Source: Oscillospiraceae bacterium (GTDB lineage Bacteria > Bacillota > Clostridia > Oscillospirales > Ruminococcaceae). Taken from it: a stretch of DNA of 33,633 bases. Where the stretch lies: positions 1 through 33,633 of the forward strand of contig WRKZ01000016.1 in NCBI GenBank assembly GCA_009777835.1, written 5' to 3'. The position numbers were made by a program, and so were the translations under genes. The notes beneath the pieces were generated by a model, which saw nothing but the letters and a program-made list of their open reading frames with translations, searched no databases and was not told the origin of the DNA. Positions 981 through 2,426 of the stretch are shown in pieces (within the stretch, counting starts at the first letter, position 1; each line of letters starts with the position of its first letter).

Positions 981-2426
981 ATGAAAACTAAATACATTTT
1001 CGTTACCGGAGGCGTTATTTCCGGAGTAGGAAAAGGGATTACCGTGGCTTCCCTCGGCAGATTGCTGAAAAGCCGCGGCTATAAAGTCACGATTCAAAAG
1101 ATGGACCCGTATATCAATGTTGACCCCGGCACGATTAATCCTTGTCAGCACGGTGAAGTTTTCGTCACCGATGACGGGGCGCAAACCGACCTTGATTTAG
1201 GGCATTATGAACGCTTCATAGACGAGAATCTCACGGTTTCAAACTCGGTGACTACGGGAAAAATCTACTGGAGTGTTCTTAATAACGAACGCGAAGGTGC
1301 ATATGATGGGGCGACCGTTCAGGTGATTCCGCACATTACGAATGAAATCAAGAATCGGATTTACACGGTTGCGGCTTCTGGGAATCTCCCTGATGTGGTT
1401 ATTACCGAAATCGGCGGAACTGTCGGCGATATTGAGTCTACGCCGTTCCTTGAAGCTATTCGGCAGGTCGCTACAGATAAAGGCCGCGAAAATGTTATGT
1501 ATATTCACGTTACCCCGATGGTTGAGGGGTGCGGTGAGTTGAAGACTAAACCTACCCAACACTCGGTCAAGACACTTTTGTCGCTGGGAATCCAACCGGC
1601 GGTTCTGGTTTTGAGGAGTACTTGTGAAATTCCCTCCGATGTTAGCGAAAAAATTGCGAATTTCTGCAATGTTCGTCGGGAGGACGTGATTACCTGCATG
1701 ACCGCGAAGAGTCTTTATGCGGTTCCGCTTATGTTGGAAGAGCAGGGGTTAGCTAACGTAGTCTGTCATCACCTCGGTCTTGAAAATCCTGTCCCGGATT
1801 TGGAAGAGTGGCGCAAAATGGTCGAGAAAATCGTGAGCGGAAGTGATTCCACCCCGATTACGATAGGTGTGGTCGGCAGGTATGCGGTCATGCCCGATGC
1901 TTATCTTTCGTTGATGGAAGCGTTGCGTCATGCCGGATTTAACACCGGTGTGAATGTGAACGTTCGACTTATTCAGTCGGAAGAAGTCACGTCAGATTCG
2001 GCAGAGCAGTTGCTTTGTGATTGTTCCGGGATAGTCGTTACCGATTCCCGCGGGAATTCCGCCATGAATTATGCCGTAGCGAAAGGTGTTCCGTTTTTAG
2101 GTGTGGGAATGGGGTTGGGGAGCAATCCTAAAACAGCGGGGCTTTCTGCCTGCAAGCTGAGTGAAGGGAGTCTTTCGCGGCAAATCTACGGCGAAGAGCT
2201 TATTCATGAGCGGCACAGTAACAATGTCGAGAATATCTCTAACCTTGAAAATCCCGTATTGGCAGGGCTTTCGCCGGATGGTAATTTAGTCGAGATTGTC
2301 GAGCTTCCGCAGAATATACATCCGTGGTTTGTGGCGGTGCGCTTCCGTCCGGAATTTAAGTCACGACCGAATCGTCCGCATCCGTTGTTCACGGCATTCG
2401 TGAAGAAGATGTTGGAGGGACGATGA
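981..2426 (+). CDS. pyrG: CTP synthase with a degenerate glutaminase domain
   Basis: CTP synthase makes CTP from UTP, ATP and nitrogen, normally taken from glutamine. The synthase half (about residues 1-265) looks intact: the P-loop region [17 protein letters not shown], then [23 protein letters not shown] and [12 protein letters not shown]. The class I glutamine amidotransferase half is abnormal. Where the family has LGICLGMQ, this protein has LGVGMGLG, so Gly376 (2106-2108) replaces the nucleophile Cys. Where it has FHPEF, this has FRPEF, so Arg456 (2346-2348) replaces the catalytic His; Glu458 remains. The oxyanion segment PGGFG is replaced by TDSRGNS. The protein is 481 residues against about 535-545 normally, and about 55 residues are missing between the Cys and His positions. 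HPWFVAVRF and RPHPLF show that homology continues to the end, so this is not a frameshift. It probably works with free ammonia or a separate ammonia donor (inference). Confidence 0.93.

Follow-up and report, generated by a model that had tools for sequence, protein, structure and literature searches.

Can a CTP synthase whose glutaminase half has lost its catalytic residues still make CTP, and from which nitrogen donor? The question arises from a pyrG gene in the window, i.e., the whole 33,633-nucleotide stretch of DNA that we analyzed, a contig of an Oscillospiraceae genome (WRKZ01000016.1 of assembly GCA_009777835.1; G000 below, with G, C, and L numbers denoting genomes, contigs, and loci). 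Bacterial CTP and GMP synthases are usually regarded as glutamine enzymes, and natural glutaminase-dead sole copies would show free ammonia carrying nucleotide synthesis in vivo.

The two halves of the window PyrG

The pyrG frame (Table 1) runs from ATG to TGA without an internal stop and encodes 481 aa. The Pfam model CTP_synth_N matched residues 4–267 with 403 bits (cut-off 26.1), and the NCBIfam models PRK05380.1 and PyrG scored 603 and 561 bits in two stretches, the best of which stops at residue 379. The protein thus stands above the cut-off of a model titled "glutamine hydrolyzing CTP synthase", so that automated annotation hides the loss described below. The synthase domain carries the P-loop and nucleotide-site residues, and the two-domain chain reaches the C-terminus of the family with its HPLF block kept. 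The initial annotation held that every synthase signature was retained, which is slightly too strong: 124 of 130 conserved columns, counted over aa 1–284, are kept, and six depart (V13I, M52I, E68Q, S184C, N239C, and, near residue 178, the deletion of two residues). Columns were called conserved at ≥97% among the non-degenerate PyrG of the genus and order, and deleted columns were counted as changed. The PyrG of the relative G021 has M52I, N239C, and the deletion too. Residues K18, K40, D72, and E143, which we take to have catalytic roles, are invariant across 40 aligned sequences.

The AlphaFold model of the window PyrG (mean pLDDT 83.6, pTM 0.84) superposes on the solved CTP synthases 4zdj and 8fve, best on 4zdj with a TM of 0.90 by query length. 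Its least sure parts are the synthase loops 46–58 and 183–192 (pLDDT <50), the second of which adjoins the two-residue deletion common to G021. In the model of the intact control G035 (mean pLDDT 87.8), the ten-residue blocks matching the two loops average 63–69 and 78, and this lower confidence in the window model is indicative that the deletion-bearing loop may be altered.

The glutaminase half is eroded, with 34 of its 75 conserved columns changed or deleted. When the protein is aligned by HMMER with the PyrG of E. coli (8i9o), Cys379 corresponds to Gly376, His515 to Arg456, and Glu517 to Glu458, whereas PGGFG (350–354 in E. coli) reads TDSRG. Among the features of a class I triad enzyme, the nucleophile Cys, the triad His, and the oxyanion PGGFG are therefore missing and the triad Glu is present. 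The lid residues R356/G357 are lost as well, and a main deletion of ∼50 residues removes the stretch past the nucleophile elbow that is seen in intact relatives. About 55 residues are missing overall, full-length PyrG of the resident type being 530–543 aa in the genus. The two catalytic replacements, the lost oxyanion segment, and the shortening had all been read by the initial annotation and are borne out here. Judged from its sequence, the window protein is a PyrG, yet not a glutamine-hydrolysing one.

Homologues of the gene upstream of pyrG lie at the pyrG loci of G021, G010, G062, G012, G023, G027, G064, G082, and G084, and homologues of polA, the gene downstream, at those of G021, G010, G063, G062, G020, G023, G083, G005, and L100, the last being the named locus closest to the genus and listed by NCBI as Oscillospiraceae. 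These shared neighbours mark the window pyrG as the resident gene in its ancestral place. No RNA elements were found at gathering thresholds in the window, C39, C40, or the end of C21. Farther along the window, a run of ORFs at 25469–33631 resembles, by eye in the ORF list, type II secretion or type IV pilus genes, and the same list holds a very large, secreted-looking ORF of 1118 aa at 29601–32957.

Table 1. Features in and around pyrG in the window
Feature	Position	Strand	Evidence
Upstream neighbour, DUF6734-like, conserved locus	144..974	+	26.7 bits, just below cut-off 27
pyrG, resident copy at ancestral locus, glutaminase-dead CTP synthase	981..2426	+	ORF, Pfam/NCBIfam, synteny, tree
Synthase (amidoligase) domain, aa 1–268, conserved	981..1784	+	PF06418, 403 bits
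Remnant glutaminase (class I GATase) domain, aa 293–481	1857..2423	+	PF00117, 32.8 bits (cut-off 22.8)
Former oxyanion segment, TDSRG (aa 354–358) replacing PGGFG	2040..2054	+	Alignment
Nucleophile position, Gly376 (GGA) for Cys (E. coli Cys379)	2106..2108	+	Alignment, codon read
Main deletion junction (aa 380–381)	2118..2123	+	Alignment
Triad remnant, Arg456 (CGT) for His515; Glu458 kept	2346..2354	+	Alignment, codons read
polA, downstream neighbour, conserved locus, named by eye	2442..4673	+	Homologues at relatives' pyrG loci

A second PyrG and a putative glutamine island in the same genome

The genome of the window (1.74 Mb, 93 contigs, 95% complete) was searched for a second pyrG, which had been set beforehand as one half of what would count against the initial annotation, and a Cys-bearing copy was found on contig C39. 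This copy has PGGFG and LGICLGMQ and is cut by the contig end; counted from its earliest start codon it has 459 aa, from the aligned start 437 aa, and it stops short of the His. The same type is whole in the relatives G010, G062, and G063 (528–535 aa). On C39, the gene order is gltB core, purC, purB, purA, Fe-S protein, oxidoreductase, GXGXG protein, purF, carA, carB, guaA, and pyrG (purA, purB, and purC named by eye), and contig C40 carries glmS, glnA, an ANTAR regulator beside glnA, hisH, hisF, and gdhA. Blocks of both types lie on one contig within ∼24 kb in G062; both are present without carB and pyrG in G064, and most of the genes occur in two or three blocks of partly different order in G063, G010, and G020. 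From this arrangement in relatives, we infer that C39 and C40 make up a single glutamine island in G000. The island loci (L003, L234, and L238–L248 in G000, G063, G062, G064, G010, and G020) group glutamine synthetase (GS), split glutamate synthase, GDH, and the ANTAR regulator with many glutamine-dependent biosynthetic enzymes, and this gene content suggests a regulatory role.

The island PyrG forms a clade with the PyrG of another family in the order (support 100/100). An AU test rejected a single clade of the C39 and window copies (p 2e-5), which are 59% identical in the synthase half. The island was likely transferred from outside the genus.

Outside C39 and C40, the genome encodes a GuaA of only 316 aa without a glutaminase domain (C21), NagB (C5), a second PurF, PurL, GatB, and TrpE–TrpG (C27). 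The two purF genes of G000 (L236:3616-5208 and L003:7083-8555) are divided between C39 and C29, and both encode the N-terminal Cys. This class II Cys of PurF is also kept in G027, and PurL of G000 keeps the Cys of CNGFQ, which indicates no general loss of glutamine use. The six PF00117 matches in G000 are the window PyrG, the CarA, GuaA, and PyrG of C39, HisH of C40, and the TrpG beside TrpE on C27; within this family, no match is left unassigned, and neither a partner subunit nor a working glutaminase domain was found for the window PyrG.

Graded and recurrent losses in relatives and beyond the genus

We searched 71 genomes of the same genus, 55 of which had a PyrG match, and aligned 48 sequences from 44 of them, island copies included. 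The nucleophile or the His is lost in 10 of the 48, the window copy (both lost) among them. The losses are graded: the PyrG of G021, G010 (C1), and G063 (C19) keeps the Cys with His changed to Arg and the oxyanion Gly to Asp, and that of G027, G023, G012, G084, and G020 has Ser for Cys with the His kept. In a free tree, G063 is set apart from the window, G021, and G010, although the AU test does not reject one His-to-Arg clade (p 0.25); nor does it reject a single origin for the Cys-to-Ser group (p 0.30), inside which G064 keeps the Cys. A 458-aa frame on C15 of G066 (L054) is an island-type PyrG in which the Cys, the oxyanion segment, and the His (FNPEF) are separately lost; the island copies on G000 C39 and G006 C93 break off before the His.

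The altered PyrG is the sole CTP synthase match in G021 (His to Arg) and in G027, G023, and G084 (Cys to Ser). A second match is absent in G020 and G012 too, but the island contig of G020 stops inside guaA, so that an island pyrG may be missing from the assembly, and G012 is 87% complete. Most genomes of the genus are in many contigs, and absences of GlmS or of a second PyrG may therefore be gaps. Resident and island PyrG stand side by side in G000, G010, G062, and G063. What looked like a third, degenerate copy in G010, 114 bases of C40 with 95% identity to residues 1–38, was judged to be a piece from a contig break; the upstream neighbour gene lies directly beside the fragment (L033), and the resident pyrG begins at the very end of C1, its first 38 residues being equally distant from the window.

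The losses extend to other amidotransferases. GuaA has an open frame of 313–359 aa, as against the usual ∼500, in 25 of the 71 genomes, and all 13 short forms that were read begin at the ATPPase domain. In CarA, the Cys is changed to Gly in G027, G023, and G084, and the His to Val in G027 and G084 and to Ala in G023; CarA of G021 (282 aa) has no recognisable nucleophile motif and Asn for His. As the only PF00117 matches in G027, G023, and G084 are PyrG and CarA, both without nucleophile, no glutaminase of this family looks functional there. Among 16 genomes tested, glutamine synthetase was matched in all. GlmS was above cut-off in nine, being absent from G021, G027, G023, G084, G012, G083, and G088, and NagB was present in 11, including all nine with a dead resident PyrG (the match in G084 has one stop), and was not found in G014, G035, G030, G062, and G088. 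Dead PyrG, dead CarA, GuaA without glutaminase, absence of GlmS, and presence of NagB come together in G021, G027, G023, and G084.

Short GuaA, called by frame length, accompanies seven of eight dead resident PyrG and five of 24 intact ones (Fisher p 0.0016, kinship not corrected), with G062 and G083, which have small near-site changes, scored as intact and genomes without a GuaA match, G010 among them, omitted. We considered a strict coupling of dead PyrG to short GuaA and rejected it because of these five intact-PyrG genomes; the two are associated only. Among the 41 same-genus genomes that are ≥90% complete, six had no CTP synthase match (G022, G028, G065, G071, G073, and G034), and in G028, G065, G071, and G073 the short form is the only GuaA match.

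Between the window and G021 genes, codon positions 1, 2, and 3 of the synthase half differ by 0.165, 0.090, and 0.562, which shows purifying selection on this half. For this pair, dN rises from 0.129 in the synthase half to 0.379 in the glutaminase half; the comparably distant intact pair G035–G014 has values of 0.122 and 0.173, respectively. As dS is saturated for both pairs, dN was used without dN/dS. The ratio of glutaminase to synthase distance, leaving out pairs with a synthase distance ≤0.05, has a median of 1.87 among intact PyrG (range 0.72–2.53; 297 of 351 pairs), 5.69 in the Cys-to-Ser group (4.67–6.73; four of 10 pairs), and 3.03 in the His-to-Arg group (2.05–3.59; six of six pairs), whose range overlaps that of the intact proteins. 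By these distances, the glutaminase half is relaxed relative to the synthase half. The synthase tree gives the window copy a longer branch (0.40) than the other members of its clade (0.16 and 0.18).

A parallel was found outside the genus. Among the best 80 named loci, the PyrG Cys is kept in 78 and the His in all 80. Two loci lack the Cys, each from a genome with one PyrG match: L179 of Sporosarcina sp. JAI121 and L166 of a Tissierellia bacterium MAG (JAUNUQ010000003.1; L166/L203), whose PyrG has Ser for Cys and PAGFG for PGGFG, an apparent further loss. In the genus of JAI121, all 62 PyrG from 61 sampled genomes (L204–L233 and L252–L283, one duplicate sequence dropped) are without the nucleophile Cys (29 Ser, 30 Gly, and three Ala), and 60 of the 61 genomes have one PyrG match. 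These proteins share the absent nucleophile with the window PyrG and differ from it in being mostly of full length, with the His kept in all that were read. GuaA is degenerate in three of four genomes examined (G137, G139, and G108) and intact in G095, where the only CarA found has Gly for Cys. Relatives had been named by the initial annotation as a place to look for the same loss, and there it proves graded and recurrent, reaching into GuaA and CarA. According to one article, multiple papers call ammonia (or urea) mandatory for S. pasteurii, and the article's own test without ammonia, with a medium recipe that lists urea, gave no visible growth difference (PMC7775470). The glutaminase losses could be a candidate cause of this ammonia requirement.

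Nitrogen donor, alternatives, and known systems

We consider it likely, from the sequence comparisons above, that the window PyrG is an ammonia-dependent CTP synthase and one element of a change of nitrogen donor, with ammonia taking the place of glutamine in the making of nucleotides. UTP would be aminated by free ammonia without glutamine hydrolysis, by an enzyme whose gene is the ancestral one of the lineage, still at its ancestral locus. The decay of the glutaminase would have been stepwise, beginning with the His-to-Arg and oxyanion Gly-to-Asp changes common to G021 and G010, and followed, on the window branch alone, by the Cys-to-Gly change and the ∼50-residue deletion. The window PyrG may belong, with NagB and the glutaminase-less GuaA, to an ammonia set that is kept apart from the putative glutamine set of the island (GS, glutamate synthase, GlmS, PurF, CarAB, GuaA, PyrG, HisHF, and the ANTAR regulator). 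On the simplest reading, plentiful ammonia would call on the ammonia enzymes and scarce ammonia on the glutamine enzymes. With ammonia, NagB could operate in the reverse direction. For E. coli CTP synthase, one study reports that the G352P change leaves glutamine-dependent CTP formation undetectable and NH4Cl activity almost full, and that GTP, acting at the cleft by which ammonia presumably enters, inhibits the use of ammonia (PMC9138612). Without the lid and oxyanion segments, the window PyrG would be expected to have an open ammonia entry and to have lost GTP control.

Several other readings bear on the same data. The resident copy might be a pseudogene in the making, decaying with its synthase half lagging behind after the island PyrG took over. 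Its long branch, its six changed synthase columns, and the Cys-bearing second PyrG of G000, which could make all CTP and leave the window copy dispensable, would fit this, but the codon positions are far from the equality of unconstrained sequence, and the loss is also seen in genomes that yielded no second PyrG (G021, G027, G023, G084, and the Sporosarcina genus); we hold such decay to be unlikely. The coexistence of resident and island PyrG in four genomes and the conserved synthase-domain residues of the window PyrG would also suit a non-catalytic or regulatory subunit that takes ammonia or allosteric signals in mixed tetramers with the C39 protein. Against this stand the identity of only 59% and the separate clades of the two proteins, as well as the broken-triad homologues for which no partner was found (G021, G027, G023, and G084), which make mixed tetramers highly improbable.

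The initial annotation had left room for either free ammonia or a separate glutaminase as the source of nitrogen; the former is most likely, and for the latter no PF00117 candidate was found. A two-subunit form is known for archaeal GMP synthetase (PMC10526850), yet no GATase gene adjoins pyrG in the window, each of the six PF00117 matches in G000 has an assignment, and G027, G023, and G084 have no free-standing match. With no candidate in these four genomes among the PF00117 proteins or, by similarity to the GuaA glutaminase domain, at the short-GuaA loci, we give a separate subunit only a very slight chance. Errors of assembly or sequencing, or the mixing of genomes in one bin, might be suspected in a genome of 93 contigs whose C39 pyrG is cut by a contig end, and have next to no likelihood: the frame is open, the His-to-Arg and oxyanion changes recur in G021, G010, and G063, and the tetranucleotide usage of C39, C40, and C21 matches that of the window (r 0.964, 0.960, and 0.967, compared with 0.953 between the window halves and 0.52–0.86 for ten samples from same-genus relatives). 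Contamination was ruled out by this match and because G010, G062, and G063 each contain the two PyrG types as well. The view of the initial annotation that the loss evolved is upheld by the shared changes and by the codon-position differences.

Beyond the ammonia-dependent CTP synthase itself, a wider proposal can be framed: that the glutaminases of PyrG, GuaA, and CarA are lost, GlmS is gone, and NagB may be reversible, so that nucleotides are made from ammonia; that this arose at least twice (in this genus and in Sporosarcina); that the acquired island is a switchable second nitrogen system in some genomes, that of the window included; and that the losses could underlie, at the molecular level, the ammonia need of Sporosarcina. 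We give this proposal, taken as a whole, about an even chance. The losses offer a testable proposal for the ammonia need of ureolytic Sporosarcina, suggest two nitrogen-donor systems side by side in some bacteria, and provide, in the glutaminase-dead PyrG, ready-made mutants for work on the ammonia tunnel and GTP control. In the open-access literature, we found no natural glutaminase-dead CTP synthase from bacteria or Sporosarcina, which is weak evidence given the thin coverage of subscription journals; as far as the open-access literature shows, natural glutaminase-dead CTP synthases as sole copies are new.

Compared with glutamine-hydrolysing PyrG (TIGR00337 and PRK05380; 8i9o and 4zdj), the window PyrG is alike in fold and synthase residues and differs in lacking the nucleophile, the triad His, PGGFG, and the lid R356/G357, with ∼50 residues deleted. 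The E. coli G352P protein (PMC9138612) resembles it in a change of the oxyanion segment; that protein has one engineered change with measured activity, whereas the window PyrG is natural, has several losses, and is known from sequence. Type N NadE is likewise a glutaminase-free member of an otherwise glutamine-fed family, and PMC3376133 states that the single-domain form uses free ammonia in vivo and proposes it to be ancestral. Table 1 of the same article gives pyrG (800 genomes) and guaA (730 genomes) as 100% fused to a glutaminase. The short GuaA departs directly from that table, whereas a dead but fused PyrG would count there as fused (PMC3376133). Unlike type N NadE, the window PyrG retains its glutaminase domain in an eroded state.

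Vertebrate carbamoyl phosphate synthetase I is an amidotransferase made ammonia-dependent by loss of the nucleophile Cys. It is a mitochondrial, animal enzyme of the CarAB family, whereas the present case is a bacterial PyrG, and, unlike in carbamoyl phosphate synthetase I, some relatives of the window genome combine changes in CarA, GuaA, and PyrG within one genome.
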